Source of the DNA: Dehalococcoidia bacterium
GTDB taxonomy: Bacteria; Chloroflexota; Dehalococcoidia; Lucifugimonadales; Australimonadaceae
Assembly (NCBI GenBank): GCA_022449765.1
Contig: JAKUPZ010000011.1
Coordinates: 1-60,936, forward strand
Direction: 5' to 3'
Length of the DNA stretch: 60,936 nucleotides
This document shows positions 19,232 through 55,502 of this stretch, piece by piece. Numbering within the stretch: the first letter of the stretch is position 1; the number at the start of each line of letters is the position of its first letter. Made by a program: the position numbers and the translations under genes. Under the pieces are notes generated by a model, which ran no database searches, was not told the DNA's origin, and was given only the letters and a program-made list of their open reading frames with translations.

Positions 19232-19323
19232 CAGCCCTCCCTGACTACGAGTCTCACGCGGAGTCATCGCTCCAGCGCGCTGACGGATGCTAGCACGAGA
19301 AAAGCCTCTAGTCTACTAATTTC

Positions 19324-39698: not shown

Positions 39699-39927
39699 TC
39701 ATATCTCCCATTTCATCAGGATTTACCAGTGAAGAAATTGCAGAATTACCAACTATTAATTCAGACATTTCTGTCACAGGGCCTGAAAAAATCTTGCCTT
39801 CAATAGCTGATTCAATATTCGCATACCAAGAGTCTTCGAGCCTAACCAATCTGATTGTTAAGTGCCCATCCTTGACAAGGATTTCATCAGTAGGTGCAGG
39901 AATATTTCTTCGCCATTTAGGCTCCAT
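39691..39927 (-). CDS. Small protein of unknown function
   Basis: I do not recognise this 78-residue protein (MEPKWRRNIPAP at the start, NPDEMGDMNG at the end). It is mixed alpha/beta in character, with a tryptophan, no cysteine, no membrane segment and no signal. It starts inside the last codons of the Gfo/Idh gene and ends 8 bp inside the SDR gene, so it fits an operon as a coupled gene. No clear ribosome-binding site is visible, and its absence as a known family lowers certainty. It may be an accessory subunit. Confidence 0.45.
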   Translation of the reverse strand: MEPKWRRNIPAPTDEILVKDGHLTIRLVRLEDSWYANIESAIEGKIFSGPVTEMSELIVGNSAISSLVNPDEMGDMNG

Positions 39928-41155
39928 ATTCAAAAGGCATTGGAACCTGATGGGATAATTGAATATCCCTCCCCGTAAGTGAAGATTCCATTATTGCAGT
40001 GATTAATTCTAATGTAGCCATTCCCCATTGCCCGTCATGATACACAGGTGCATCATTTCGGACCGCGTTAAACAATTCCATAAGGTCTTCTCTGCCCGCC
40101 TGGTATTTTGTGATGGATAAAGGCCTATCTTCTACGCCACCATCTTTATAAACATACAAACCATGGCGGGATTGACGTAAGTCGCCTCGCTCACATGTAG
40201 CCACAAGGATCCCTAAATTTGCAGGCTTCCAAGGTGGAATTTCTGAAGGCGTTTCTCGCCAAAATCTACGCTCATGATCCGAGCCAATTCGTAAGTCATG
40301 CTTAGCTGCAAATTCGTCTCTACTTCCGGACTTCAATTGCTCCCTAATCTCGACGCGTTCATCGTGCGTATAGCCAAGAATCAAACCTTTGCCAAGCTCA
40401 TCACTCCATGGGGTTAAATCTGAAGTCATGGAATAGCCATATCCATTATTTGTAACGTTAGCGGTGACACCATCCTCAAATTCCATGAATGCCGAATAGT
40501 AACCAACGCCGTTACGTTCAGGCCACCATCTGCCAGTAGTGCCTCGGATAGTTTTGACCATACCTCCACCAAGTAGTCTTAAACTATCCAATTGATGTGG
40601 TCCTTGTCTGTACAAAACGCCTCCGCCAAGGCTTTCGTCTAATTCATCAGGCTCTCTGGCTTGAAGCATCCAATCTGTAAAGGCCCAATTGTTTAGAGCC
40701 TTTAATGGGCCAAGTTCGCCCGATAAAATAATCTTTCTCATTTCCATTACAGGGGGGCTAAAGCCCAAGGTATGACCGCACAATAGCTTTACATTATTTG
40801 CTAATGCAGCCTCCACCATTGCTTCAGCTTCATGCATATTCAGAGCCATGGGTTTCTCTGACACTACATGCTTGCCTGAATTCGCAACCATTACAGTATG
40901 CGGACAATGCAGCGCATTTGGCGTGGCGACCCAAACCGCTTCAATCTCAGGGTCATTACATAGTTCTTCAGCGCTGCCAAACACGTGAGCTTCTGGGAAT
41001 CGGTTCTGAAACGCCTCTCTTACTAACGGATTAGTGTCCGCTGCAGCCATCAGGTCAATTTCTGGCATCTCTTCCATGTTTGGCATTATTTGTGTTGCAC
41101 CCACACCTACACCAATAATGCCCATTTTCAATGGCTTTATATTTTGATTTGCCAT
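39917..41155 (-). CDS. Gfo/Idh/MocA family oxidoreductase
   Basis: A 412-residue dehydrogenase with Rossmann loop MGIIGVGVGATQIMP, canonical EKP (HVVSEKPMALN), and SLGGGVLYRQGPHQLDSLRLLGGG with the conserved His. The C-terminal WGMATLELITAIMESS matches the two Gfo/Idh proteins at 31168 and 34540. It is probably a dihydrodiol dehydrogenase-type enzyme for a cyclic intermediate. It follows the gentisate dioxygenase-like gene by 21 bp in the long minus-strand operon. Confidence 0.88.
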   Translation of the reverse strand: MANQNIKPLKMGIIGVGVGATQIMPNMEEMPEIDLMAAADTNPLVREAFQNRFPEAHVFGSAEELCNDPEIEAVWVATPNALHCPHTVMVANSGKHVVSEKPMALNMHEAEAMVEAALANNVKLLCGHTLGFSPPVMEMRKIILSGELGPLKALNNWAFTDWMLQAREPDELDESLGGGVLYRQGPHQLDSLRLLGGGMVKTIRGTTGRWWPERNGVGYYSAFMEFEDGVTANVTNNGYGYSMTSDLTPWSDELGKGLILGYTHDERVEIREQLKSGSRDEFAAKHDLRIGSDHERRFWRETPSEIPPWKPANLGILVATCERGDLRQSRHGLYVYKDGGVEDRPLSITKYQAGREDLMELFNAVRNDAPVYHDGQWGMATLELITAIMESSLTGRDIQLSHQVPMPFEYGA

Positions 41156-41176
41156 ACGATTCCTTTTAACGAATTT

Positions 41177-42232
41177 TTAACCGATAGATCCTAGAATATC
41201 TTGTCGATCCATCTCTTCTTCCCGGTAGAGGCCCATTGCCTCGACTACAGGCAAATCGCTCATCGAAAATAGAACAGCATCCTCGTTGGATTCAGTTCCA
41301 TGTTCATGTGTAACCCAAGCAGGCAATACGAATGTATCGCCTTTAGACCAATCTAATCGCCTACCATCAACTATTGAGAAACCCGAGCCTCTAGCAGCAT
41401 GATAGACAACGCTAGAAGTATGCCGATGTGCATCAGTATGAGAATTTGGTGCCAGCCGTTGAAGTTTTAGAGCCAGAGTTGGCATGCTATGGCCACCCGT
41501 AACTGGATTTGAGTATTCCATTATTACACCATCAAATCGATCTTCTTCTCCGAATCCCAATAATGCACCATATGCATCATTCCATTTGTAGGTTATAGGG
41601 AGCGTCCCACCAACAACGTCTTTTAAATTGGCACGCATCAAGCCGTTACCAATAGCTGCATTGGTATAGCCATTGGGTTTGGTGACAGGTTGCACATCTT
41701 CAGGGTATGGCTCTTGAAACATTCCATCGAAATAACCAACCATAGGGGCATCTAAGCAATCAAGCCAAATGACAGGTTTTTCTTGAGGATTATTGTGGTC
41801 ATGCCAGACCCAGCTTGGAGTTAATGTTAAATCACCTTCTTCCATTCGGAATCGTTCTCCATCTTGCACAGTAAAAGCGCCTTCGCCTTCAATGACAAAA
41901 CGAATTGCCGCTGCACTATGCCTATGCGCTTCAGCAATCTCACCTGGCCAAACGATTTGGATGGCAGCTGACATAGTTTTAGTAGCTCCTGCTTGAGGGT
42001 TATTTAAACCAGGATTACGCATTGTTAGCGCACGTCGGAACCCATGCCCCTTCAAGCTTTCAAGTTCTCCCGCTTGATAAGCTAAATCACGCATTTCAGT
42101 CCATCTCCAAACATAAGGTTCCAGTTTGGGTCGCTCGGGGGGGTATGCATGCATTACCCATAATGGATTTATATTGGCATCATCCAGTTTCTGGTGATAG
42201 GCCTTTTCATTTTCGGGCATAATCCAGGACAT
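41177..42232 (-). CDS. Gentisate 1,2-dioxygenase-like bicupin
   Basis: A 351-residue bicupin resembling gentisate/1-hydroxy-2-naphthoate dioxygenases, which cleave the ring of gentisate between C1 and C2 to maleylpyruvate using Fe(II) and O2. The first cupin has metal ligands His103 and His105 (EAHRHSAAAIRFVIEG) and His144 (WVWHDH). The second cupin retains HxH (TDAHRHTSSVVYHAARG) and WVTHEHG. An FAH-family hydrolase lies nine bases upstream in the same operon, the classical pairing for maleyl/fumarylpyruvate hydrolysis. Preference for salicylate-like or other ring acids cannot be ruled out. Confidence 0.87.
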   Translation of the reverse strand: MSWIMPENEKAYHQKLDDANINPLWVMHAYPPERPKLEPYVWRWTEMRDLAYQAGELESLKGHGFRRALTMRNPGLNNPQAGATKTMSAAIQIVWPGEIAEAHRHSAAAIRFVIEGEGAFTVQDGERFRMEEGDLTLTPSWVWHDHNNPQEKPVIWLDCLDAPMVGYFDGMFQEPYPEDVQPVTKPNGYTNAAIGNGLMRANLKDVVGGTLPITYKWNDAYGALLGFGEEDRFDGVIMEYSNPVTGGHSMPTLALKLQRLAPNSHTDAHRHTSSVVYHAARGSGFSIVDGRRLDWSKGDTFVLPAWVTHEHGTESNEDAVLFSMSDLPVVEAMGLYREEEMDRQDILGSIG

Positions 42233-42241
42233 AATAGCCTC

Positions 42242-43096
42242 CTAGTAACGAGCTTCAGCACGAGCAGATAATTCTCCAACATCACTAATATTGATAGTGA
42301 CAAGGTCCCCTGGTGCAATAGGTCCTACACCTTCAGGTGTTCCAGTAAATACAAGATCCCCTGGTTCCATTTTTGCAACCCAGGACATATTTGCTATCTG
42401 GTTTTTGCAATCAACAATCATGTCTTTAGTAAAAGCATGCTGGCGCAATTCTTCATTGATCCAAAGATTTATTTCCAAGTCTTGAGGATCAGGGATTTCA
42501 TCAGCCGTGATAATGTAAGAACCAATTGGAGCAAAAGAATCAAACGATTTACGCTTACTTCGATCTTCCGGTCCTCGTACAGTTATATCCAATCCGCATG
42601 TATAGCCAAAAACATGACTGAGGGCTTGTTCGGCAGGTATCATGCTGCCAGCTTTGCCAATGATCATCACTAATTCTGACTCATGATGTATAACTCTATC
42701 GGAATACGGCAACAGTATAGGATCATTAGGACCCGATACTGAACTAGAAGCCTTTAAGAACATTCCTTGCTCGGAAGATATTTGCGGCGCGGAACCAGAC
42801 CATGGGCTCGCCTGCATTTCATCAGAATGAGCTTTGTAATTCGATGGCTGGGCGTAAACTTTCCTTGGTGCAGGTACTGGTGCAATCAAATTTACTGTAT
42901 CAAGCCCTACAGGGTCTTTAGTCTCAATATAATCTTTGATTTTTGGCAAGAGAGAATCCCATCGCTCTATCAAGGAAAGCATTCGGAATGAGCGAAGTTC
43001 ATCAGGCAAATCAGGAAGTAGGTCTGTAATTTCTATAACGCTATTATCGCTAGTCAAAACACCTATTTGATAATCATTGAAGCTAATTAATTTCAT
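42242..43096 (-). CDS. Fumarylacetoacetate hydrolase family protein
   Basis: A 284-residue FAH-superfamily enzyme, probably fumaryl- or maleylpyruvate hydrolase. Conserved metal ligands occur in HHESELVMIIG (ExE), and LDITVRGPEDRSKRKSFDSFAPIGSYI contains the DxxxR...K/D...GP block. FTGTPEGVGPIAPGD near the end is the family hallmark. ATG 43096 has AAGGAG six bases upstream. The next gene downstream encodes the gentisate dioxygenase-like bicupin, supporting action on its ring-cleavage product to give pyruvate plus a C4 acid. Confidence 0.92.
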   Translation of the reverse strand: MKLISFNDYQIGVLTSDNSVIEITDLLPDLPDELRSFRMLSLIERWDSLLPKIKDYIETKDPVGLDTVNLIAPVPAPRKVYAQPSNYKAHSDEMQASPWSGSAPQISSEQGMFLKASSSVSGPNDPILLPYSDRVIHHESELVMIIGKAGSMIPAEQALSHVFGYTCGLDITVRGPEDRSKRKSFDSFAPIGSYIITADEIPDPQDLEINLWINEELRQHAFTKDMIVDCKNQIANMSWVAKMEPGDLVFTGTPEGVGPIAPGDLVTINISDVGELSARAEARY

Positions 43097-43147
43097 TTGT
43101 ACTCCTTCTATTTGGGACAGTATCACCGCTACACGTAAGGGTCAAAC

Positions 43148-43759
43148 CTAGTGAAGAGGGGAAAATGATGAAGGGACCATATGCCTTACTAGCTGCTGTA
43201 CAGGACGTTCATCTGTGTGAGGTGGCCATATACCTTGAGTGTAAATTTTTCGAAGTTCATCGCGATGATCCCAGTCTCTGTATGGCCATAATTGGTAAAA
43301 GCGATTGAGTTGCCCTAGTTCGCTTGCAAAAAAACAACCTGGTGAGATTTCCAGTCTCTTAGGAGCCTGTTCGGTAAATTGCTTCATCACCGAGCTGATT
43401 GCTCCAGAAGGATAGGTATACATTCGGAGTTCATACAAATTCCCCCACTCTCTAGGTCCATCAAGTGGGTCGTTAATTGGTGACGGGGCAAGGATATCGC
43501 TCTCCATTGAGACAGCAAATTCAGTAATATCTGGTGGCCATATACCATCCGCAATTACTTTTGCACGTGTATCCGATCTATGCTGCAATGATTCGTAGCC
43601 CCACAAATGTACAATTTGGTTCAAGGGTCCGATATCTGTATGCCAAAAACCAATTAAAGGTGAGACTTTTACCCTAGCCTCGATTTTTTCTGCAAATCTA
43701 CGTTCAACTTCAGGTACTGAATTTGCAGTCAAGTTATACGTACGCAATTCGTAAATCAA
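43148..43759 (-). CDS. NIPSNAP family protein
   Basis: A 203-residue protein made of two tandem NIPSNAP/dimeric alpha-beta-barrel repeats: MIYELRTYNLTANSVPEVERRF with GFWHTDIGPLNQIVHLWGYES (residues 1-60), and YELRMYTYPSGAISSVMKQF with GCFFASELGQLNRFYQLWPYRD (about 109-165). The family has unclear function but recurs in catabolic operons, possibly binding or isomerising reactive intermediates. It lies between the MFS and FAH genes in the minus-strand operon. Confidence 0.88.
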   Translation of the reverse strand: MIYELRTYNLTANSVPEVERRFAEKIEARVKVSPLIGFWHTDIGPLNQIVHLWGYESLQHRSDTRAKVIADGIWPPDITEFAVSMESDILAPSPINDPLDGPREWGNLYELRMYTYPSGAISSVMKQFTEQAPKRLEISPGCFFASELGQLNRFYQLWPYRDWDHRDELRKIYTQGIWPPHTDERPVQQLVRHMVPSSFSPLH

Positions 43760-43797
43760 AACAATTACCTCGCTTTAGTAATGTGCGCAGTCTAACC

Positions 43798-45045
43798 TTA
43801 ATTTGATTTTCTAGAAACTTGCCTTTCAAAAGTTTCAGGAGCCATCATCGCAAAGATTAAAGTGCAGAGAACTATCGCGCCGCATATTAAGAAAAATGTG
43901 GTTTGTAATTCAAAGTATGTTGCAAGCAATCCGGCACTCAACGGTCCGATTACTTGCCCAAAACTAAGCATGAAATGGTACGCCCCTATAAAAGCGCCTC
44001 TATGATCAACGGGAGCCAGATCCATAGCATATGTCAAAATAGTATTCGAATTGGTACCTTCCGCAACTGCAAACGCCGTAACTGCAAAGAATGCCGTTAC
44101 CAAGCCTGCAACCGTCCCTAACAAGAAAGTAGCTAGGATCGTTGCAAGTAGACCGGCAATAATAAGTTTTTTGCGACCGTACCTATCAAGCAATACACCT
44201 ATAGGCATAGTCAGAATTAAGGTTATAAGGCCTGCCACTCCAACTAAATTACCGATGGCTGTAGGATCAAGTCCTCCTGCATTTTGAGCATGAATAGGGA
44301 AATATGTTCTGAAAACACCAGGCCCGAGACCTACGGTACCGAATGCAAAAGTAGCTGCAACTAATCCCGCAAATGGACGATTTGCAAACATACTTAAGGA
44401 GCTAAGCCCTTTCCTTGCAGCAATATGTTCGTTCAAGACAGGTGCTTCACTCTTAATAGGCTTTGTTTCCGGAATCATTGTCAGCGTGACCAGCAAAACA
44501 ACTAAGCGAGTGAGTGCAATGAAAATAAAAACCCACCGAAGATCAAATAAGCCTGCAATAATACCCCCAACCACTGGCCCAGCTAATAACCCAACCCGTT
44601 GCGCCGTATTCCTTAAGGCAACTCCTCTTCCGCGGTTACCGGCGTTCGTTACATCTGCTACCAATACACCGGACGAAACTACCCAGAAGGCTATAGCTAG
44701 TCCGGCAAAAACTTCTAGCACCGCGTATTGAAAAAAATTTGTTGAGAAAGCCTGTAAAACTAATACAGTTCCATGGCCGATTGCACCAATCATTATTAAT
44801 GGTTTTCTACCCCATCTGTCGGAAAGATAGCCAGTTATAGGTCCAGATATCATTCTTGGACCAGCGCTCAATGAGGAGATCAAACCGACGAAAAATAACG
44901 ATACTCCAAAGGAAAGTGTAAAAAGAGGCCTAGCTACCCATAGAGCACCAGTTCCAAAACCCCAGCTAAAAAAAATAATGACTATTGGAAGTGCAAGGCC
45001 TGATAGATTACCTTCAGTCTCAAATTTTGATTTTTTAAAAATCAA
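43798..45045 (-). CDS. MFS transporter
   Basis: A 415-residue, 12-helix major facilitator. The A-motif loops GYLSDRWGRKPLIM (residues about 73-86) and GVLLDRYGRKKLII (second half) are clear. The aromatic-acid or multidrug DHA1-type are the nearest recognisable groups. It overlaps the CoA-transferase gene by 4 bp (ATGA-type coupling), so it likely transports the operon's substrate or product. Direction cannot be inferred. Confidence 0.92.
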   Translation of the reverse strand: MIFKKSKFETEGNLSGLALPIVIIFFSWGFGTGALWVARPLFTLSFGVSLFFVGLISSLSAGPRMISGPITGYLSDRWGRKPLIMIGAIGHGTVLVLQAFSTNFFQYAVLEVFAGLAIAFWVVSSGVLVADVTNAGNRGRGVALRNTAQRVGLLAGPVVGGIIAGLFDLRWVFIFIALTRLVVLLVTLTMIPETKPIKSEAPVLNEHIAARKGLSSLSMFANRPFAGLVAATFAFGTVGLGPGVFRTYFPIHAQNAGGLDPTAIGNLVGVAGLITLILTMPIGVLLDRYGRKKLIIAGLLATILATFLLGTVAGLVTAFFAVTAFAVAEGTNSNTILTYAMDLAPVDHRGAFIGAYHFMLSFGQVIGPLSAGLLATYFELQTTFFLICGAIVLCTLIFAMMAPETFERQVSRKSN

Positions 45046-46244
45046 ATTGCTTCCACTGCTTCCAATGACTTAATTTCAGCAACAGAATAGCCACAAATAT
45101 TCTTCAAAATCTCTTGGGTGTGCTGGCCCAAAAGCGGTGGCGGGGAAAAATTTTCATCTTGGCCAGTTTTTATAGGATTCCCGGAAGTCTTTATACTACC
45201 TATCGTCGGGTGTTCAATCTCTACTAGCATGTTACGGTGCAAAACCTGTGGGTCAGAAAAGACATCACTCAAATCATTAATGGGAGCTCCAGGGATATCC
45301 CAGTCAACAAATAATGATTTCCATTCTTCTTGATTTTTTGTTTTTATCGCACCATCTAATATTTCTTCCAAGTCTTTTCGGTTTTCCATTCTTCCTGTGG
45401 CTGTTGTAAAGCGAGCATCATTAGATAAATCTGAATAACCAGGGACAGTTGCAGATACCATTTCTGCAGTTTTGAACCAAAACGGCTCAGTTGAGCAATG
45501 AATCTGAACCCATTTATTATCTTTAGTCTTAAACGATTTGGCAGGAATATTGCTAGGGTGACCAGAACCAATTGGTTCTGGTACTACTCCAGAAGCCAAA
45601 TAGAACGCTCCTAAATGAGCTTGAAATGACACCTGCATATCCAGCATGCTGATATCAACACGCTTGCCTTTGCCAGTCCTCGCTCTTTCATGAAGAGCAG
45701 CAAGCACACCAAATGCAAGTCCCCATCCGCCACCAACATCTCCCATGGGAAATCCCATGTAGACTGGATCCTCATTTTTTCTACCGGTTACGCTCATTGC
45801 ACCGCCCATAGCTTGAACAACACCGTCAAATGCGGGTCTTTGGGAATAAGGCCCGTCTTGGCCAAACCCAGAAAGCGAGGCAGAAATAATTGCTGGATTA
45901 ATTTGATTTAATATCTCAAAGTTAATTTTGAGCCGTTCTAATACTCCTGGCCTAAAATTATCTAGTACCACATCAGCATGTTTTGTCAGTTCATAAAAAA
46001 CAGATAAGCCTTCTTCAACCCGCAAGTTTAAAGTCATACTTTTTTTATTTCTATTAAAGCCTAAAAAATATGCACTCTCGCCTTCTAAAAAATATGGGCC
46101 TAATTTACGAGAGGAGTCTCCTGAACCTGGCTGTTCAATTTTTATGACTTCTGCGCCTAAATCGCCAAGCAAGCGACCTGCTAAGGGTCCCCCGAGGACA
46201 TTTGTTAGCTCCAAAACCCTAATATCGCTTAATGGCATACTCAT
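45042..46244 (-). CDS. CoA-transferase family III (CaiB/BaiF)
   Basis: A 400-residue family III CoA-transferase, which moves CoA between carboxylic acids. The N-terminal LSDIRVLELTNVLGGPLAGRLLGDLGAEVIKIEQPGSGD is diagnostic. Then come NRNKKSMTLNLR, DVVLDNFRPGVLERLKI and the catalytic Asp in PMGDVGGGWGLAFGVLAALHER. It would activate an acid for beta-oxidation by the acyl-CoA dehydrogenase encoded just upstream (4-bp overlap). Confidence 0.94.
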   Translation of the reverse strand: MSMPLSDIRVLELTNVLGGPLAGRLLGDLGAEVIKIEQPGSGDSSRKLGPYFLEGESAYFLGFNRNKKSMTLNLRVEEGLSVFYELTKHADVVLDNFRPGVLERLKINFEILNQINPAIISASLSGFGQDGPYSQRPAFDGVVQAMGGAMSVTGRKNEDPVYMGFPMGDVGGGWGLAFGVLAALHERARTGKGKRVDISMLDMQVSFQAHLGAFYLASGVVPEPIGSGHPSNIPAKSFKTKDNKWVQIHCSTEPFWFKTAEMVSATVPGYSDLSNDARFTTATGRMENRKDLEEILDGAIKTKNQEEWKSLFVDWDIPGAPINDLSDVFSDPQVLHRNMLVEIEHPTIGSIKTSGNPIKTGQDENFSPPPLLGQHTQEILKNICGYSVAEIKSLEAVEAI

Positions 46245-47419
46245 AATTGAGACTCGTAAATAAAATCACCAGATGGATAATTTTTTAAGATATTCCTAGC
46301 AATTACTTGCCTTTGTATTTCGTTAGTACCTTCACCTATTATCATAAGCGGAGCGTCTCTGAAATAACGCTCAACAGGTAAATCTTGAATATACCCTGCC
46401 CCTCCGTGAATTCTCATTGCTTCAGTAGCAACATTAAGGCAGGTTTCACTTGCAAAAAGCTTCGCCATCCCAGCTTCAAGGTCCGCCCTGACACCTTCAT
46501 CTTTTTTCTTGGCAGCATCCATAACTAAAAGATGAGCTGCTTTCACCTGTGTCGCCATTTCAGCAAGCTTCTGCTGAATGGCTTGGTGCTCAGCAATTGG
46601 CTTACCAAAAGTTTGCCGCTCTTGAGCGTATTTGACAGCTGCTTCAAGTGCTGCACGTGCAACGCCTACTGCTCTCGAGGCAACATTAATTCTTCCAAGC
46701 TCGAGGCCCGACATCACATGTGAAAAGCCATGACCTTCAAGTCCACCAAGTAAATTAGTTTGCGGAACCCTGTAATCGTCCAAAGCTATCTCTGTCGTCT
46801 CAACACCACGGTAGCCTAATTTAGGTATATCTCGTAATACACTCAAATTCTCAGATTTCTCCCCAAGTAAGATACTTATGCCTTTATGCTTAGGCTCGAT
46901 ATCAGTATCTGTCTTGCAAACAATGGCGTAAATTGAGCTATATCGGCCATTAGTAATGTACATTTTGCGTCCATTTAGGACATACTCATCTCCATCCAAT
47001 ATGGCTGTGGTCTGAATTGCCGCAACATCAGTTCCTGCCTCCGGCTCAGTTATGCATAAAGCAGCGCGCTTCTCGCCAGATGCCATTAATGGTAGGAAGT
47101 TTTGCTTTTGGTCTTCTGTACCTGACATTTGGATCATATTGGCGACAAGTAGATGCGTATTGAGTATACCTGTAAGGCTCATCCAGCCCTTGGCTAGCTC
47201 TTCAATCATTAACGAATATGACTCAACTCCAATCCCACTGCCCCCATATTTTTCAGGTATAGTTGCACCGAAAAATCCAAGTTCTTTCATTTGTTCAACT
47301 AAGTGTTCAGGGTACTTATCGGCATGCTCTAGTTCACTAGCTACCGGAATTACCTCTCGCTTTACGAACTCTCTGACAGTAGCTATTAGGCTTTTTTGGA
47401 ATTCTTTATTCTCGATCAT
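46241..47419 (-). CDS. Acyl-CoA dehydrogenase
   Basis: A 392-residue FAD enzyme oxidising acyl-CoA to enoyl-CoA. FAD/substrate motifs are ALCITEPEAGTDVA and KMYITNG in the middle beta-domain, then QTFGKPIAEHQAIQQKLAEMA and GGAGYIQDLPVERYFRDA. The catalytic Glu is in IGEGTNEIQ. ATG 47419 is preferred (GGAG six bases upstream) over a 47-residue N-terminal extension that would run across the divergent MFS start. It is the first gene of the long minus-strand operon. Confidence 0.94.
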   Translation of the reverse strand: MIENKEFQKSLIATVREFVKREVIPVASELEHADKYPEHLVEQMKELGFFGATIPEKYGGSGIGVESYSLMIEELAKGWMSLTGILNTHLLVANMIQMSGTEDQKQNFLPLMASGEKRAALCITEPEAGTDVAAIQTTAILDGDEYVLNGRKMYITNGRYSSIYAIVCKTDTDIEPKHKGISILLGEKSENLSVLRDIPKLGYRGVETTEIALDDYRVPQTNLLGGLEGHGFSHVMSGLELGRINVASRAVGVARAALEAAVKYAQERQTFGKPIAEHQAIQQKLAEMATQVKAAHLLVMDAAKKKDEGVRADLEAGMAKLFASETCLNVATEAMRIHGGAGYIQDLPVERYFRDAPLMIIGEGTNEIQRQVIARNILKNYPSGDFIYESQL

Positions 47420-47484
47420 CTCAACTCCATGGGCGAGTATATCCGGTTTTAGTAATATGAGCGCACTGATGATGTTTGGACAAA

Positions 47485-48768
47485 ATGAATAGCAGACCCA
47501 ATATACGACCGCGAATATCAATTTTCTGGCCATTTCGCAAAATTTATTATGGATGGGCAATTGTCACTGCCAGCATGTTTTCTGCAGCTGCTAGCGTCCC
47601 AATGCAAGGACCTATCATGGGCGTATTTCAGAGGCCCATTCAAGATGATCTTGGATGGACTTCAACCTCGATTTCCATAGGTTTTGCAATTGGGTCAGGT
47701 ATGGGTGGTATAGGATCAATATGGGTAGGAAGGATTCTAGATAACAGAGGAGCAAGAGGCGTAACTGTCATCTCAGGAGCAATAATAGTCGGTTGCATGA
47801 TTGGCCTAGCTTCAATGACACAAGTCTGGCATTTTTGGGGCTTATTCGGCTTAGCAAGAGGGACAGCAGCAGCTGGTGCACAACTTGCAACTATGGTTGC
47901 ACTAGCTTCATGGTTTGTGAAGAAACGTGGCCGAATTGTTGGATTGTTAGGAGTAGGGCAACGTGTCGGGCAAGTAATAATGCCTATTCCAATTCTTGCA
48001 ATTATTGTAACGCTGGGTTGGCGCGAAGCCTGGCTCGCACTGGCAGGGTTTGCGTTTTTAGCAATTGTTATTCCAAGTGCAATTTACATGAGACGCCGAC
48101 CAGAGGATTATGGCCTCATGCCCGACGGGCAGCACGCCGCTGAGAATCTGCCCGCTAATTCCGTATCCGAATCAGCAGGTGAAGAGCTGTGGACACTTGC
48201 TGAAGCAAAGCGTACAAAGACGCTTTGGGCACTGATTATTGGTCAGGCTGCCGTAATTTTGGCGGTAAATGCAACAAATTTACACATCACAGCAAGCTTT
48301 ATTGACAACGGGCTTACGCAAAGCGCGGCTGTAACAGCGACCACAATTTACCTAGCTGTTGCAGCACTTTCAGTTTTTGGTTGGGGTCTTGTCATGGAAC
48401 ATGTTCATACAAGGTTATTAGCAGTAATATCTGTGGCTTTATATTTTGTTTCAATGATATTAGCGATAGCAGCTAATTCGTTTTTAATTGCAGTATTTTT
48501 CAGCTTAGCCTATGGGTCTGCACTTGGAGTATGGACCGTAGTGAGCAGAATGCTATTCGCTAATTATTTTGGCAGAAAATCTTTTGGTACGATACGTGGT
48601 TTCGCAGCACCCATAATGTCTGGTGTAAGCATGATCGGGCCAATTTTCGCTGGCCTTATAAGGGATTTCACCAATGATTATGATTTTGCATTTTGGGTGT
48701 TCTCGTTAGTTTTCGTCATTGCATTAATTGCGTTTTCCGTTGCAAAACCGGTCAGTAAAAATTCATAA
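47485..48768 (+). CDS. MFS transporter, monocarboxylate/oxalate-formate-like
   Basis: A 427-residue 12-helix transporter. YYGWAIVTASMFSAAASVPMQGPIMGVFQRPIQDDLGWTSTSIS gives the N-terminal helix typical of the OFA/MCT branch, where the YYGW start and the conserved FxxPxxxDLGW motif occur. A-motif GRILDNRGARG follows. The substrate is probably a small carboxylate, by family. ATG 47485 is chosen over TTG 47476. It is divergent from the acyl-CoA dehydrogenase (about 65 bp between starts). Its stop codon lies inside a long terminator hairpin. Confidence 0.9.
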   Translation: MNSRPNIRPRISIFWPFRKIYYGWAIVTASMFSAAASVPMQGPIMGVFQRPIQDDLGWTSTSISIGFAIGSGMGGIGSIWVGRILDNRGARGVTVISGAIIVGCMIGLASMTQVWHFWGLFGLARGTAAAGAQLATMVALASWFVKKRGRIVGLLGVGQRVGQVIMPIPILAIIVTLGWREAWLALAGFAFLAIVIPSAIYMRRRPEDYGLMPDGQHAAENLPANSVSESAGEELWTLAEAKRTKTLWALIIGQAAVILAVNATNLHITASFIDNGLTQSAAVTATTIYLAVAALSVFGWGLVMEHVHTRLLAVISVALYFVSMILAIAANSFLIAVFFSLAYGSALGVWTVVSRMLFANYFGRKSFGTIRGFAAPIMSGVSMIGPIFAGLIRDFTNDYDFAFWVFSLVFVIALIAFSVAKPVSKNS

Positions 48769-48813
48769 TAAAAGCGATGGCGCTCTTGGGCGCCATCGCT
48801 TTTATTATGAATT
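48760..48813. terminator. Bidirectional terminator with a 24-bp perfect stem
   Basis: 48760-48783 pairs exactly with 48790-48813 around a six-base loop. The GC-rich core AGCGATGGCGC/GCGCCATCGCT is flanked by A/T tracts. It is symmetric, so it can stop the convergent MFS and Rieske transcripts. The MFS stop (48766-48768) lies within the stem and the Rieske stop (48812-48814) at its edge. Confidence 0.92.
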
Positions 48814-50077
48814 AATGAGTACCTACCGGGTACATTTCTGGTTTAAGTGCTGACCAATGTTGATCTGCCGGAAGAATACGATCAATAGCACGAATACCGA
48901 TAAATTCTCCTTGGCTACCTCGAGGCGACCCTCCATCACCAGCAACTTTTATAGACTCCAGAAGCAATTTTCGCATTGCAATGATTGCCCGATCGCTTGT
49001 TCCTAGTCGCTCTTGAGTTCTATCAGCTATAACACCCATCGTTTCCTGTAATGCACGATCTTGAGTATTCACTCCCACTATCCCAGTGAAATTTTTCGTG
49101 CGTTGCATGTCCCGATCCAGCATCCAATCATTACCTTTATTTCGCTGAGCAATAAAGGTAGTACGATCAATGTCTACATCCCATTCATTGCCCGTACCTT
49201 CAAGGGCTTTATCCTTAGCGTTCAACGGATTGTCATCCCATGTAAATGTCCAGTTGAAGACCATTGTGGTTTCGTCATCAATGGGAACCCAGCAATGTCC
49301 AGAGCTACGGGGTTGTACTTTTTCACCACTTCTACCAACTTGCCCCGCCCGAATTTGGTGAAAAGGCAATACGTAATGATATGTACGTATGTAATTGCCC
49401 TCATCTTTTGAAAGTGGCCGGGTAGAACTGTAGGTATATCCATAGTCAGTTGTTTCAACTTCCAAATAAGGAGCAGTGGAGCGAGATCGAAGAAGGGTTT
49501 TATCCGATAGGTCGTTGTTATGAAGGAAAGAAGAATGGGAAGTATCTATCCCACCTTCAACTGCTTGAACCCAGTTACATGTCTGGACCAATTTAGTAAT
49601 TCCCCGATGTGTATCAGGCACTGTAGTCCATTCAAACATTGGAGGTGTGGGTACTCGGTCTGCCGGGCCGAGGTAAGCCCATATAACATTACCACCTTCC
49701 CATGTTTTATATGCCTTCGTTTTAACTTTATGCTTAAAGTTACTTTCTACAGGCTCATTCGGCATATCAACGCATTCACCGTTTACATCAAATTTCCACC
49801 CATGGTAGACGCAGCGCAATCCTTCTTCCTCATTCCTTCCAAAATACAAACTAACGCGGCGATGAGGGCAAGCGTCAGGAAGCAACCCAATCCGGCCTTT
49901 TGAGTCGCGAAACGCTACCAGGTCTTCGCCAAGGATTCTTACTCTTACTGGATCACAATCAGCATGTGGAAGTTCGAAATCCATCATAATTGGAATCCAG
50001 TAGAGCCTCATTGTCTCTCCCATAGGGGTTCCTGGTCCAACTTTAGTGATTAAATTGTTATTTTCTGCAGAGAGCAT
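48812..50077 (-). CDS. Rieske non-heme iron oxygenase, large subunit
   Basis: A 421-residue phthalate/vanillate-type oxygenase. Rieske ligands are Cys70, His72, Cys89, His92 (CPHR...CVYH). The iron site is Asp178-x-x-His181-x4-His186 (GIDTSHSSFLH). It shares the N-terminal GPGTPMGE-MR-YW block with the oxygenase at 33242 but is otherwise quite different. ATG 50077 has GGAGG upstream. It is the last gene of the tctC-tctA-tctB operon, which suggests that it oxidises the compound taken up by that TTT system. No reductase is encoded nearby. Confidence 0.93.
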   Translation of the reverse strand: MLSAENNNLITKVGPGTPMGETMRLYWIPIMMDFELPHADCDPVRVRILGEDLVAFRDSKGRIGLLPDACPHRRVSLYFGRNEEEGLRCVYHGWKFDVNGECVDMPNEPVESNFKHKVKTKAYKTWEGGNVIWAYLGPADRVPTPPMFEWTTVPDTHRGITKLVQTCNWVQAVEGGIDTSHSSFLHNNDLSDKTLLRSRSTAPYLEVETTDYGYTYSSTRPLSKDEGNYIRTYHYVLPFHQIRAGQVGRSGEKVQPRSSGHCWVPIDDETTMVFNWTFTWDDNPLNAKDKALEGTGNEWDVDIDRTTFIAQRNKGNDWMLDRDMQRTKNFTGIVGVNTQDRALQETMGVIADRTQERLGTSDRAIIAMRKLLLESIKVAGDGGSPRGSQGEFIGIRAIDRILPADQHWSALKPEMYPVGTH

Positions 50078-50115
50078 ATTTCCTCCCAAAATCTGAATAA
50101 TCTACGCCATCCAAG

Positions 50116-50658
50116 TTAATTTGCTTGAAAGGCATTCCACCATTCTACAACCAAAGGTGTATTCCACTCAGCCATTAAAATGTCTCCATAAATAAATATC
50201 ATTATGGCTTCGAAAAAAATTGCAGGCAATATTGCCCAGTACCATTTTGCTCCTGCAAAAACCATTAGGTAAAGGATGGTATAACCCGGGACTGCAACAT
50301 GAAATCCAAATAGCCATATGCCTATTAACAAGCCAGCGGTACTTCCAACCAACTTAATCCAACGCTTTGCTACTACATTGTTGTCTGCATCTGCTTCTAA
50401 GAACCCTGTGTCCATAATTTGCGCATCGGGGTCCGAAATTCGAGTTCGAAAGAGGCTAACAATCCTCCAAACCCAAAAGGGAATACCGAAGGCTATAGTT
50501 ATTCTTGGTAATAACCACGCCCCAGTTCCCCATTCTTGTGAATCCCAAAGCATGTATGCAAAAACCGCACCAACTACAGCAAGAAGTACGACTTCACCAA
50601 GGAATTCAACTGAAAGAAATTTTTGACTATTGGTTTTTTCTGAATCAGAGGTAGTCAT
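50116..50658 (-). CDS. tctB: TTT transporter small permease subunit (TctB)
   Basis: A 180-residue protein with about four membrane helices (TctB/DUF1468): FLGEVVLLAVVGAVFAYML, LPRITIAFGIPFWVWRIVSLF, LVGSTAGLLIGIWLFGFHVAVPGYTILYLMVF and the last pair near 145-170. It is the small membrane partner of TctA, encoded six bases upstream. In the paralogous system at 19324 the same domain is fused to TctA. Confidence 0.88.
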   Translation of the reverse strand: MTTSDSEKTNSQKFLSVEFLGEVVLLAVVGAVFAYMLWDSQEWGTGAWLLPRITIAFGIPFWVWRIVSLFRTRISDPDAQIMDTGFLEADADNNVVAKRWIKLVGSTAGLLIGIWLFGFHVAVPGYTILYLMVFAGAKWYWAILPAIFFEAIMIFIYGDILMAEWNTPLVVEWWNAFQAN

Positions 50659-50664
50659 TTGTAC

Positions 50665-52185
50665 CTAATCCTCGGAGCCAGAAGCGGCTTGAGAAGCCTG
50701 TATTTTTGCTGCGTTCCGCTGTACGCGCATTCCTATAACTGCGCCAATAAGCACGACTACTAGGATCGCGATAAATTGCGGACGTTGAAACATTGTCCAC
50801 CCGTAAGTATTCACGGATAGCCAAAGGTATTTTTCAACAACTTCAGCCAAAACTATCGCAATTACAATAGGCGGGCGAGGCCAGCCATAGGCCTTCATAA
50901 AGAGCCCTAAAATACCGGCAATTGCAAACAAAGCCAAATCTCCTAGGGACTGGGACGTCTGGAATACTCCAATAACGATGATCGCCATAACCAAAGGAAA
51001 CAATACATTCGGGGGAATTATTGTAACTCGTGCAATCAGCGGAGCGAACCGCAGTACTATCGGTACTACGATTATGTTCGCAAGTGCGATTGTCCAGACT
51101 AACGCGATTGTAAGGTCCAAATGCTGATCTAGCATTGGAGGCCCTGGTTGAATCCCGACCAAAATTAGCATTGCCAATATTAACGCCATTTGCGGGCTTC
51201 CCGGAATAGAGAAAAATAGAGTTGGGACCAAAACCCCGCCATCAACAGAATTATTCGAAGCTTCAGGTGCAATAACTCCTCTAATATCACCGGTACCAAA
51301 TGTTTCGGAAGCACCTTTTTCAGTCTGGCGTGCCTGCGCATAAGCAATCCAATGAGCTGGTACCGCACCCAATCCCGGCATCATTCCCACAAACGCTCCG
51401 ATCAATGATGATCTAACAATTAACCATTTATGGCGAAGAGCAGCGCGCATGCCTTTCTTTACGTCCCCACTTGAACCAGCTAAAACTTCATCGAGTCTAT
51501 CTGTAGCAATAGAAGTATTACTAACGACCAAGTTTGCTAATTCAGGAATCGCGAACAAACCTAAAAGCATGGGGACCAAAGGCAAACCTTCCCATAAATA
51601 GCCAATACCCAAGTCTGCTCTTACTTCGCCACTAATGGGAGAAAAGCCGATTAAAGCAATTGCAAGTCCAAAAGCTGCGGTAAGTAGCCCTTTCACCATT
51701 GCTCCTGTACTTAGAAGAGCAACTGTGGCGATTCCCAATAGCCCCAAAAGGAAAAATTCAGCTGACCCAAAGACTTTTAGAATTTCACGAGCCACGGGCA
51801 AAACGGCCATCAGGCATGCTGCGCCTACTAATCCACCAATAAGGGAAGATAAATATACGGCGCCTAAAGCTTCACCAGCTCTCCCTTGCCGGGCCATTGG
51901 ATATCCATCAATAATTGTCGCTTGTGATCCACGTGAACCTGGAACTCCGATTAATATTGATGGGATAGGCTCCGTAGCATCATTAGCAGCAGCGTAAAAA
52001 ACAGCAGCAGGCAAAGCAATGAATGGATCAAGCTGAGAAGCAAAGCTTAACAAAAGGATAAAAACAGGTACTCCGCCAGCAATCATCACTCCATTAAACA
52101 GAGCTATTGGCGTAATGATTGCAAACGCAATTAACGGGCCTGGACTGAATAATTGTTGAGCAGCACTAACAGATGCTTCCCACAT
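50665..52185 (-). CDS. tctA: TTT transporter large permease subunit (TctA)
   Basis: A 506-residue permease with about 11-12 helices. Family signatures include ITPIALFNGVMIAGGVPVFILLLSFASQLDP, SILIGVPGSRGSQATIIDGYPMARQGRAGEALG and a second PGLGAVPAHWIAYAQARQTEKG...FGTGDIRGVIAPEASNNSVDGG. The first family block (usually G-x-x-P-G) reads GGVPV here. It drives cation-coupled carboxylate uptake using the TctC receptor. A stem-loop separates it from the upstream tctC gene, which may lower its expression relative to the receptor. Confidence 0.93.
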   Translation of the reverse strand: MWEASVSAAQQLFSPGPLIAFAIITPIALFNGVMIAGGVPVFILLLSFASQLDPFIALPAAVFYAAANDATEPIPSILIGVPGSRGSQATIIDGYPMARQGRAGEALGAVYLSSLIGGLVGAACLMAVLPVAREILKVFGSAEFFLLGLLGIATVALLSTGAMVKGLLTAAFGLAIALIGFSPISGEVRADLGIGYLWEGLPLVPMLLGLFAIPELANLVVSNTSIATDRLDEVLAGSSGDVKKGMRAALRHKWLIVRSSLIGAFVGMMPGLGAVPAHWIAYAQARQTEKGASETFGTGDIRGVIAPEASNNSVDGGVLVPTLFFSIPGSPQMALILAMLILVGIQPGPPMLDQHLDLTIALVWTIALANIIVVPIVLRFAPLIARVTIIPPNVLFPLVMAIIVIGVFQTSQSLGDLALFAIAGILGLFMKAYGWPRPPIVIAIVLAEVVEKYLWLSVNTYGWTMFQRPQFIAILVVVLIGAVIGMRVQRNAAKIQASQAASGSED

Positions 52186-52205
52186 TCATCCCTCCTGGAT
52201 GATAT

Positions 52206-52246
52206 AAATACGCTCGGTACAGGAAATTCCTATACCGAGCGTATTT
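52206..52246 (-). terminator. Attenuating hairpin between tctC and tctA
   Basis: AAATACGCTCGGTA (52206-52219) pairs with 52233-52246 around a 13-base loop. T-rich sequence follows the stem on the minus strand. It lies only five bases after the tctC stop and about 20 bp before the tctA start. It may terminate part of the transcripts or stabilise the tctC mRNA. Confidence 0.75.
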
Positions 52247-52250
52247 AATA

Positions 52251-53483
52251 TTAATTAACTACTAACTTACCAACACCGCTCATTTCAAGAACCAATTCCC
52301 TTGTTGAAGGATCTAGATCTCGTACGCGTCGAACGATATCAAGCATTTCTCCTGATTTACCATACCCATAACTATCGGTATAACCAGCGATTCCAAGTGA
52401 TTCTATAAATCCGTCGTCAACCATGATCTTGTCAAATTGATCCTGCCAATATTTTCTAACATCAGCTGGTACTCCCTCTGGGAGAATGAATACTCGCGAA
52501 AGATCAGTAACAAGCAAATTAGCCTGCAAAGCCTCTAGCTGCTTCGGGTCTACCGTTAATCCGGGAAGGTCGAGGAAAGATGGCAATTTACCTGTGTATC
52601 CCAATGTCGCTAAGTAGTCTGAGGATACTGGCTTTTTCTCGTAAAACAGTGGCACTAAACGGCCTTCCTCTGCCCATTCAGGAAATAGTCGTCCCGCTGT
52701 GCTAGGTCCGCATCTGTTCGTGAAATCTAACTCGCCTCGGTCAAATGCAGCCATTATTTCAGAAGTACCACCGTATCCATAAACTAACTTGAATGGGCCA
52801 CCGTTCTTTGCCATAAACTCAACGGCAGGCTCGTTACCAGGGCCGGCCGCTCCCATGAGTAGAGGCCGTCCAAGAGCGAGAACTTCTTCCCAAGACGATG
52901 CAACTTTTTTGTCTACACAAAACACGTCACCTCTAGGCGAAAAAGTAGGTGAACCGAGGATGTATATTTTTTCCAAATCAAAATCGGTAATATCCCCTAC
53001 AATAGCCTGCCTCTGGAACCATCGAGAGTGGACGGGACCAGTGGTCAAGCCGTCTGGGTCAGCATCCAGCAAAGCTCTAAGCCCTCTGTACTGGCCTCCT
53101 CCAGGTAAATTCTGAACTACAAATCGTGTACTTTCAGGGAAGTATTTCTCTGCGGTGGCTGAAACCAACCGGCTGAAAACGTCATACCCTCCACCTGGGC
53201 TAGTACCTGTTATAACCCTGATAGTCTTATTGCCAAAATATGCCTCTGCATCAAATTTAGGCTCTGGGGTTGCAGTAGGCGGTACAGGCGTTGCTGTAGG
53301 AGCAGCACTTGAAGAGCCGCTACTAGAAGGAACCGGCGTCGCTGTCGGAGCGGCTGCTGGAACCGGCGTCGCGGTAGGGGCGGGCTTAGGCGTAGGAGTA
53401 GGATCTTCTCCGCCACAGGCAATGCCAAAAGCTAGCAACGCCATAGAAATCATTGCAATACTAATAAAGCGATATACTCGCAT
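52251..53483 (-). CDS. tctC: TTT transporter substrate-binding lipoprotein (TctC)
   Basis: A 410-residue receptor. The signal peptide ends in the lipobox FGIAC (Cys23), followed by GGEDPTPTPKP and a repetitive Ala/Pro/Thr linker to about residue 75. The Bug/TctC domain begins at NKTIRVITGTSPGGGYDVFSRLVSA. It binds an organic acid in the periplasmic space and delivers it to TctA/TctB. ATG 53483 has AAAGGAGG seven bases upstream. It heads the operon with tctA, tctB and a Rieske oxygenase. The lipobox-linker start is nearly identical to the TctC at 17981. Confidence 0.92.
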   Translation of the reverse strand: MRVYRFISIAMISMALLAFGIACGGEDPTPTPKPAPTATPVPAAAPTATPVPSSSGSSSAAPTATPVPPTATPEPKFDAEAYFGNKTIRVITGTSPGGGYDVFSRLVSATAEKYFPESTRFVVQNLPGGGQYRGLRALLDADPDGLTTGPVHSRWFQRQAIVGDITDFDLEKIYILGSPTFSPRGDVFCVDKKVASSWEEVLALGRPLLMGAAGPGNEPAVEFMAKNGGPFKLVYGYGGTSEIMAAFDRGELDFTNRCGPSTAGRLFPEWAEEGRLVPLFYEKKPVSSDYLATLGYTGKLPSFLDLPGLTVDPKQLEALQANLLVTDLSRVFILPEGVPADVRKYWQDQFDKIMVDDGFIESLGIAGYTDSYGYGKSGEMLDIVRRVRDLDPSTRELVLEMSGVGKLVVN

Positions 53484-53602
53484 TCTTATCCTCCTTTGAT
53501 GCAGGCCAAATAGGAAGGTTTTGCACCAATTCGTGTCGGGCAAACTACCTATATCGAGCTCACATGTCAAATATTTCCGTAAAAGAGATATTATTATTTG
53601 GA

Positions 53603-53623
53603 ATTTAGCATATTTTGCTAAAT
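53603..53623. promoter_or_regulatory. 21-bp palindrome in a divergent control region, candidate operator
   Basis: ATTTAGCA (53603-53610), five bases, then TGCTAAAT (53616-53623). This perfect 8-bp inverted repeat lies between the divergent tctC and amidohydrolase genes, 17 bp before the latter's ATG. The size and symmetry suit a dimeric repressor. No matching regulator gene is visible in the window. Confidence 0.45.
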
Positions 53624-53639
53624 AAGAGGAGGTTTTACT

Positions 53640-54656
53640 ATGGCGACTCTAACAATTGATGCGGACGGCCATGTTCGCGACACAGACGAAGGCATCAGGC
53701 CCTTCCTGGAAGCTCCATATAATGAGCGTCCTCGTTTAAGCGCAGGTGCGCCAAGAGATGGGTTCGATAATACACTTGGCAACCGTGCTGGTACTCGTGT
53801 AGTTGATACAGCTGTTTGGGTTGATGCTCTTGAGCGAGGAGGGCTGGATTTTTCAGTTCTCTACCCTACCGGGAGCTTGGGAGCCGGCTGGATCCGAGAG
53901 TCTGATTTTGCTGAGGCGCGCGCATCAGCCTATAACAATTGGCTTCATCACACATACATGCAAACTGATTCACGATTCAAAGGTGTCGCGATGCTCCCAA
54001 TTCAAAACCCTGTTAGTGCGGCCAAAGAGCTTGAAAGGTGCGTTACCAAACTGGGTATGGTAGGAGGAATGCTACCTGAAGGTCCATATCTTTATGGGGA
54101 TAAAAAATTCGACGTTATTTTTGAGACAGCCCAATCACTCGACGTCCCTCTTGCAGTGCATGCAGGAGGGAGACTTACTGGAAGTTACGATGAATTTCTT
54201 TTCGAAAACCTCGCTCAAGTCCATTCGCTCGGGCACGCTTTTTTCCAAATGAAACAATTTGTAAGCATCGTTCTATCTGGTATCCCAGAAAAATTCCCTA
54301 ACCTAAAACTTGCTTTCCTTGAAGCAGGATGCGGATGGGTCTCATATATGTTAGACCGAATGGATGAGCGATTTCATATACGTGGGCATGTAGATGCTCC
54401 ATTGTTATCAAAAAAACCAAGCGATTATTTAAAATCCCGCAATATATTTATTTCTTGTGAAGCGGAAGAACGTTTGCTTCCCGCTACATTAGATATTATT
54501 GGCGAAGACATAGTAGTGTTTGCTTCTGATTTCCCGCACTGGGATACTGAGTTTCCTGCAAACCTAGAACATTTGCGGAACCGTCAAGATCTCAGTGATT
54601 CACAAAAAGAAAAAATTCTTGGATTGAATGCTAAGCGACTCTACGGTTTTGAATAG
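53640..54656 (+). CDS. Amidohydrolase family 2
   Basis: A 338-residue ACMSD-like TIM-barrel protein. TIDADGHVRD near the N-terminus gives DxH, LAVHAGGRLTGSYDE has the barrel His, LAFLEAGCGWVSYMLDRMDERF is a common family block, and VFASDFPHWD carries the catalytic Asp. GAGGAGG precedes the ATG. It is divergent from the TTT/Rieske operon and shares its control region. An SDR gene follows nine bases downstream. Decarboxylation or ring-fission product hydrolysis is the expected chemistry. Confidence 0.88.
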   Translation: MATLTIDADGHVRDTDEGIRPFLEAPYNERPRLSAGAPRDGFDNTLGNRAGTRVVDTAVWVDALERGGLDFSVLYPTGSLGAGWIRESDFAEARASAYNNWLHHTYMQTDSRFKGVAMLPIQNPVSAAKELERCVTKLGMVGGMLPEGPYLYGDKKFDVIFETAQSLDVPLAVHAGGRLTGSYDEFLFENLAQVHSLGHAFFQMKQFVSIVLSGIPEKFPNLKLAFLEAGCGWVSYMLDRMDERFHIRGHVDAPLLSKKPSDYLKSRNIFISCEAEERLLPATLDIIGEDIVVFASDFPHWDTEFPANLEHLRNRQDLSDSQKEKILGLNAKRLYGFE

Positions 54657-54665
54657 AGGAATATC

Positions 54666-55502
54666 ATGTATGACTTATCTGGAAAAGTGGCATTAGTTAC
54701 TGGAGCGGGAGGTGAGCACGGCTTTGGGCGTGCAATTGCCAATCGGTTAGCTAAAGAAGGAGCGGATGTTGCAGTGAATGATGTTTCAATCAATCCCTAT
54801 TCAACAAAAGCGAATTCATGGTCAGGCCTAGAAGATGTTGTTACTGAAATCAAGGCAAAAGGCAAAAATAGTATTGCGCTTGTCGGTGATGTATCAGACA
54901 GCGCTCAGGTAGATGAAATGGTTCAGGAAACAATTGATCATTTCGGAAAAATCGACATCTTAATAAACAATGCAGGATCACGGCCTGGGCCTGATCGGGT
55001 GCTTCTTGTAGACCTTACAGAGGAAGCATTCGACGAAGTTCAACGTATCAATGTTAAGGGAACGTTCCTTTGCACAAGAGCAGTTGCCCGGCATATGGTG
55101 CAAAGGCAAGGGCCAGGGAAAATAGTTAATATTTCATCGACTGCGGGAAAAAGAGGGCTTCCAAGATACGCCGCATACACCGCTTCAAAATTCGCTTTAG
55201 TCGGGTTTACTCAATCGGTTGCCCATGAGCTAGGTGAGTACAAGATAAATGTAAATGCCATCTGCCCTGGGCTTGCAGAAACCGAAAGAGTGATTCACAT
55301 AGCGAATGCAGTTAAGCCTGAAGGTACTGATACTGATTTGCATCTGAGGAAAATGATAGAACAGAGAGCCACCGTGAATCCGTTAGGAAGGATCACAGAA
55401 ACGGAAGATATAGCCAAAATGGCAGCGTTCCTCTGTTCTGAGGAAGCAAACTATCTCACTGGACTAGCGCTGTCAGTATCGGGCGGAGATGTTATGTATT
55501 AG
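54666..55502 (+). CDS. SDR family oxidoreductase
   Basis: A 278-residue SDR. The cofactor loop is the longer TGAGGEHGFGRA type, the Asp after strand 2 is in VAVNDVS, NNAGSRPGPD provides the NNAG motif, and catalytic Tyr-x-x-x-Lys is in YTASK with SST just before. It ends with FLCSEEANYLTGLALSVSGG. It is co-transcribed with the amidohydrolase upstream. The substrate is unknown. Confidence 0.9.
   Translation: MYDLSGKVALVTGAGGEHGFGRAIANRLAKEGADVAVNDVSINPYSTKANSWSGLEDVVTEIKAKGKNSIALVGDVSDSAQVDEMVQETIDHFGKIDILINNAGSRPGPDRVLLVDLTEEAFDEVQRINVKGTFLCTRAVARHMVQRQGPGKIVNISSTAGKRGLPRYAAYTASKFALVGFTQSVAHELGEYKINVNAICPGLAETERVIHIANAVKPEGTDTDLHLRKMIEQRATVNPLGRITETEDIAKMAAFLCSEEANYLTGLALSVSGGDVMY

Follow-up and report, generated by a model that had tools for sequence, protein, structure and literature searches.

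A tripartite transporter operon with its own Rieske oxygenase gene in a SAR202 genome, and the aromatic acid that it may import and oxidize

Which dissolved acid would be taken up and oxidized by an operon in which a complete tripartite tricarboxylate transporter (TTT) and a Rieske oxygenase are encoded together? The question is raised by a four-gene unit, tctC-tctA-tctB-Rieske oxygenase, in the window analysed here, which is an entire 61-kb contig (60,936 nt) of a 1.61-Mb, 97% complete genome of SAR202 (Chloroflexota). SAR202 bacteria are thought to oxidize resistant dissolved organic matter using dozens of Rieske paralogues of unassigned substrate, and a receptor genetically tied to one oxygenase offers a route to the substrate, the receptor's ligand pointing to the enzyme's. 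On the evidence presented below, it is reasonably likely that the unit is a catabolic operon that imports and oxidizes an aromatic acid and feeds a gentisate-type pathway; the substrate is probably not terephthalate.

The operon-like unit is real. The initial annotation had placed its four genes on one strand with gaps of 65, 6 and 38 bp, all of which are exact (the strand is minus, and tctB starts 6 bp past tctA), and the unit ends at a bidirectional terminator (48764-48809). Gene order in a single genome is weak evidence, because 34 Rieske genes in one genome are dense enough for a chance linkage of about 4% per TTT module. The four-gene order is nevertheless not due to chance, because it is kept in five relatives (G015, G001, G002, G003 and G005); three others have lost it or have it in reduced form. 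Where the relatives' contigs extend far enough, the unit is accompanied by the divergent amidohydrolase and dehydrogenase genes and by the convergent major facilitator superfamily (MFS) gene: the amidohydrolase position is kept in G015, G001, G003 and G005, the short-chain dehydrogenase gene is still beside the cluster in G008, and the MFS gene stays beside the oxygenase without a full TTT in G008 and G011. Of the 16 family members, nine have both the receptor clade and the oxygenase clade, one has the receptor alone, one the oxygenase alone and five neither (Fisher p 0.008, uncorrected for the kinship of the 16 genomes).

Linkage of this kind recurs beyond the focal family of operons. Among 72 TTT modules in eight SAR202 genomes, a Rieske gene lies within 2 kb on the same strand of 18 and on the opposite strand of one, and gene density predicts about three of 72 with a nearby Rieske gene; the modules are mutually related, and these counts are indications and not independent trials. 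A group-wise binomial test (7 of 14 groups) was set aside as inflated by multi-member groups, and the ratio of 18 to 1 was used instead together with the number of distinct linkage types, about seven on the same strand and one on the opposite strand. L164 in G005 is doubtful, its oxygenase fragments being weak. With C, A and B standing for the tct genes and R for a Rieske gene, the linked modules have the orders CAB-R (the focal order, found also in G007 with a different oxygenase), R-ABC, ABC-R, R-CAB, R-cyclase-AB and AB-RR. The linked oxygenases belong to different Rieske subfamilies and are scattered over the oxygenase tree, which requires at least 11 changes of linkage label. Outside Chloroflexota, the focal order of tctCAB-oxygenase is found in Ammoniphilus (Bacillota, L090), and TTT genes lie near a related oxygenase in Cohnella and others. 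The link between transporter and oxygenase that had been proposed from gene order in this one contig is thus both real and recurrent, as the five relatives and the 18 same-strand modules against one attest.

The most probable alternative is that, in SAR202 genomes crowded with Rieske genes and TTT modules in catabolic islands, the two came to be neighbours through gene density with no coupling of substrates, the TTT importing another organic acid of the same island. It is consistent with the packing of 34 Rieske genes and seven TctA genes into 1.6 Mb, with the loss of linkage in G006 and with the occurrence of receptor and oxygenase each without the other, but the strand bias among the (related) modules, the short gaps, the maintenance of linkage across two genera and the recurrence in Bacillota make it unlikely. 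At the other extreme, TTT modules in SAR202 might be interchangeable import-and-oxidize cassettes, different Rieske oxygenases having been repeatedly co-transcribed with different receptors, one dissolved acid per pair. This generalization is offered tentatively, as a possibility that falls somewhat short of an even chance; if it is true, an oxygenase that could not otherwise be assigned a substrate can be assigned one through its receptor.

The oxygenase combines a Rieske domain (PF00355) with a LigXa_C domain (PF19301, 1.7e-43), and has the Rieske motif and the 2-His-1-Asp iron site (the Asp178, His181 and His186 columns are kept). Its closest solved structures are RO_CH34 (7fhr), isophthalate dioxygenase IPDO_KF1 (9ina) and phthalate dioxygenase PDO_KF1 (7fjl), all with E < 1e-82. 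In PDO_KF1, phthalate is stabilized by Ser182, Arg207 and Arg244, and its ring is oriented by Ile256 (PMC12445078). In each of the nine SAR202 orthologues, Ser, Arg and Arg are conserved at positions 182, 207 and 244 and position 256 is Arg, the last assignment hanging on an ungapped alignment stretch beside a conserved Pro. The phthalate 4,5-dioxygenase residue set is therefore incomplete, with three carboxylate residues kept and Ile256 replaced by Arg, a combination that favours an acidic substrate other than phthalate itself. The four-residue signature was also considered as a marker of TTT linkage and rejected, having no predictive value (11 of 46 oxygenases with Arg207 and Arg244 are linked, and 14 of 101 without them). 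Viral contigs yielded a single distant relative.

The strongest support for an aromatic acid, missed in the initial annotation, is a set of ring-cleavage genes. Downstream on the same strand (39917-47419) lies an operon-like run encoding an acyl-CoA dehydrogenase, a CoA-transferase, a second MFS transporter, a NIPSNAP-domain protein, a fumarylacetoacetate (FAA) hydrolase, a two-cupin dioxygenase and a MocA-type oxidoreductase (Table 1); the nearest solved structures to the cupin protein are gentisate dioxygenases. The arrangement differs in genus g2, where the genes for the NIPSNAP, FAA hydrolase, cupin and MocA proteins lie downstream of those for the amidohydrolase and the dehydrogenase, forming with them a single run that diverges from tctC. 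Because membership of the cluster survives this rearrangement between g1 and g2, it is stronger evidence for shared function than adjacency. With ring-cleavage genes inside the cluster, it is reasonable to suppose an aromatic acid, and the candidates are narrowed to acids able to reach a gentisate-type intermediate. The earlier proposal that the imported acid is aromatic or cyclic thereby gains support from the phthalate-dioxygenase type of the oxygenase, its carboxylate residues and the ring-cleavage genes, whereas the accompanying proposal of oxidation directly after uptake keeps the standing of a prediction.

The receptor gave no match to any Pfam family, Pfam TctC included, although Pfam TctC is matched by 16 of the 50 members of its clade. 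The protein has a lipobox (FGIACGG) and a PT-rich linker, and its AlphaFold2 (AF2) model (pLDDT 89) matches eleven TTT receptor entries with Z scores of 18-21, the next class reaching 13.5; the score is 21.4 with both AdpC (5oei) and TphC (7nds). A profile of the 50-member clade finds BugD (2.6e-28) and TphC (5.5e-28). The predicted structure and the clade profile together confirm the assignment of TctC as a TTT receptor, and alignment with TphC indicates that it retains the general TTT loop (GG-x-x-D, as SPGGGYD) and the GT motif. Comparison of folds does not discriminate a ligand, since AdpC, TphC, TBP and BugD all score Z 21. The terephthalate pocket of TphC consists of P86, Q150, T155 and T242, bordered by the aromatic F30 (PMC8556258); in an alignment of about 16% identity, these five positions correspond to H152, A213, E218, L328 and T94 of TctC. 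The analogy to TphC-type terephthalate receptors that had been drawn from the sequence alone therefore fails at the level of residues, and the terephthalate reading was rejected.

These same differences bear on the nature of the ring. The acid served by the receptor could be polar and either cyclic or aliphatic (a carboxyl-rich alicyclic compound, for example), in which case the oxygenase would be a monooxygenase acting on a non-aromatic ring and the genes for ring cleavage would be part of a neighbouring pathway. The departure of the pocket from that of TphC, which binds aromatics (Thr for Phe30, Glu for Thr155), and the Arg that replaces the ring-orienting Ile256 fit this explanation, but gentisate-type genes remain in the cluster despite rearrangement and the PDO-type residues are kept, so that it appears quite improbable. 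An operon of the tph or iph kind for uptake and oxidation of a phthalate isomer (terephthalate, isophthalate or phthalate) is very improbable indeed: the PDO triad is kept and the nearest structures are phthalate-type dioxygenases, but the TphC ligand residues are absent, Arg stands at the Ile256 position, ring cleavage as encoded in the cluster is of the gentisate and not the protocatechuate type, and phthalates were judged unlikely ocean substrates by Saw et al. (PMC6946804).

Several observations weigh against the proposal of an aromatic-acid operon feeding a gentisate-type pathway. The pocket residues of TphC are lost from the receptor, with Glu218 in place of the carboxylate-holding Thr155 (in the same alignment of about 16% identity). 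In G006, a one-contig genome, about 30 kb separate the TTT genes (at 15.2-18.6 kb) from the unlinked oxygenase gene (at 48.4 kb), and in G011 (88% complete) the oxygenase is present and no receptor homologue was found. The cupin protein scores 292.7 bits with TIGR02272, under the curated equivalog cut-off of 442.1. In g2, another Rieske gene, different from the first, comes after the ring-cleavage run, and its product could be the enzyme that produces the ring-cleavage substrate. Finally, a reductase gene is absent from the locus, and neither FNR-type (PF00175) nor GR-type (PF14759) reductases were found in the source genome. With G008, in which a hydrolase gene is flanked by the receptor and oxygenase genes and TctAB is gone, the G006 and G011 genomes indicate that coupling of import to the oxygenase, though recurrent, is not obligate.

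The route proposed for the aromatic acid, in which the direction of transport, the class of substrate and the order of reactions are predicted from the gene order, families, conserved residues and clustering observed, would begin with capture of the acid outside the membrane by the lipoprotein receptor TctC. TctAB would import it by ion symport, as is predicted from its family. The Rieske oxygenase, probably encoded on the same transcript and presumably powered by a reductase encoded elsewhere, would bind the acid through its conserved Arg and Ser residues and hydroxylate or demethylate the ring. The clustered dehydrogenase and amidohydrolase-type enzymes might trim the oxygenase product, after which the gentisate-dioxygenase-like cupin and the maleylpyruvate-hydrolase-like enzyme would open the ring.

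Table 1. Features of the four-gene unit and its neighbourhood, in coordinates of the window
Feature	Coordinates	Strand	Remarks
tctC	52251..53483	-	ORF, 410 aa from ATG; lipoprotein-type TTT solute receptor, divergent clade
Hairpin, 20 bp, tctC-tctA gap	52205..52247	-	-38.6 kcal/mol
tctA	50665..52185	-	506 aa; large membrane subunit; PF01970 2.2e-104
tctB	50116..50658	-	180 aa; putative small membrane subunit, assigned from its place after tctA, its size and a profile of relatives
Rieske oxygenase, phthalate-dioxygenase type	48812..50077	-	ATG start; TTG start at 50089 possible; PF00355 + PF19301
Bidirectional intrinsic terminator	48764..48809		3' of oxygenase gene, common to convergent MFS gene
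MFS transporter, convergent	47476..48768	+	PF07690
Divergent intergenic region, 156 bp	53484..53639		between tctC and amidohydrolase gene; likely promoters
Amidohydrolase-2 family enzyme	53640..54656	+	PF04909; PDB relatives; related to aromatic-acid decarboxylases
Short-chain dehydrogenase	54666..55502	+	PF13561
Acyl-CoA dehydrogenase	46241..47419	-	family match
Family III CoA-transferase	45042..46244	-	family match
Second MFS transporter	43798..45045	-	family match
NIPSNAP-domain protein	43148..43759	-	PF07978; kept in g2 cluster and G008
FAA hydrolase, maleylpyruvate-hydrolase-like	42242..43126	-	PF01557; PDB 6jvv 1.4e-62; kept in g2 and G008
Two-cupin ring-cleavage dioxygenase, gentisate-1,2-dioxygenase-like	41177..42232	-	PDB 2d40 4e-76; TIGR02272 3e-87
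Gfo/Idh/MocA oxidoreductase	39917..41155	-	family match; same cluster in g2

The putative small membrane subunit TctB has no Pfam match, hence the basis of assignment given in Table 1, and the divergent intergenic region shows no more than a weak -10/-35 match. The gap between tctC and tctA contains a hairpin with a z score of -8.6. A strong hairpin of differing sequence occupies the same place in every orthologue examined, and z is below -3 in 27 of the 49 SAR202 tctC-tctA gaps examined. A hairpin after the receptor gene is a common means to get more receptor than membrane subunit in such operons. The hairpin suggests unequal expression, through the expected stabilization of tctC mRNA or attenuation of tctAB and the oxygenase gene, and hairpins at a fixed place across SAR202 modules are likely to control the expression of receptor relative to membrane subunit. 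Expression of tctAB and the oxygenase gene may hinge on read-through, which qualifies the assumption of one transcript.

As for the supply of electrons, exactly one PF00175 protein is encoded by each of 13 of the 16 family genomes, and none of the 16, the source genome (G000) included, has more than one FNR-type reductase. The simplest reading is that one reductase is shared in trans by many oxygenases; within each genome the oxygenases apparently rely on a common electron donor or else on an unrecognized one, and the reductase of the source genome may be lost in assembly gaps. Fer2 matches in the source genome were rejected as the cognate reductase, as they resemble molybdenum hydroxylase small subunits and an SdhB-type protein.

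Other TTT modules differ in their composition. A second module in the window (17984-21468, minus strand, TctA-TctB-TctC) is without a Rieske gene before tctA; in its relatives in G001, G003, G005 and G006, a Rieske gene immediately precedes tctA. Elsewhere in the source genome (G000 C1, L115 8524-9474), a Rieske gene is followed by a putative cyclase gene (PF04199) at the usual place of tctC and then by TctA-TctB, and no receptor gene was seen in that operon. Three SAR202 genomes have three tandem tctC genes ahead of tctA (L143, L165 and L178). In Ammoniphilus (L090 9309-10486) and Cohnella (L059 9297-10484), two small cupin genes come directly after the related oxygenase.

The relatives of the source genome are SAR202 metagenome-assembled genomes, among them OSU_TB62, with a 93% identical oxygenase, and bin16 MPMJ01, which was assigned to SAR202 group VII by Saw et al. 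(PMC6946804). The source genome is of the same kind and has the same enzyme families as this group, for which an expansion of ring-hydroxylating dioxygenases (Saw 2020, PMC6946804) and the presence of gentisate dioxygenases (Colatriano 2018, PMC6123686) are already known; the five SAR202 genomes counted have 34-85 Rieske genes each. Tripartite or tricarboxylate transporters are mentioned in neither PMC6946804 nor PMC6123686, and the literature searched, whose coverage leaves out most subscription papers, contained no earlier paper on a TTT-Rieske link in SAR202 and no earlier report of the present receptor and gene arrangement.

Among characterized enzymes, PDO_KF1, IPDO_KF1 and RO_CH34 share with the focal oxygenase the PF19301 type, the Rieske and mononuclear iron residues and the PDO Ser182, Arg207 and Arg244, whereas the focal oxygenase has Arg at PDO Ile256 and belongs to a separate clade on the tree. 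Among characterized operons, the closest likeness is to Comamonas sp. E6, in which the gene for each receptor, TphC for terephthalate or IphC for isophthalate, accompanies that for its Rieske oxygenase (PMC8556258, PMC13040137). In those systems (TphC or IphC with TpiBA and a Rieske dioxygenase), as in the focal unit, the receptor is encoded with the oxygenase of its pathway, and import is followed by oxidation. In contrast, the Comamonas membrane subunits are encoded elsewhere (PMC8556258, PMC13040137), whereas the focal operon contains the full TTT; the Comamonas terephthalate operon encodes a three-component dioxygenase (TphA1, A2, A3), whereas the focal unit encodes the alpha subunit only, with no reductase gene; and the focal receptor does not have the pocket of Comamonas TphC. 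The principle of pairing a receptor with an oxygenase is therefore already known, and what is new here is the inclusion of the whole TTT within the operon, the divergent clade of the receptor and the recurrence of the arrangement in SAR202.

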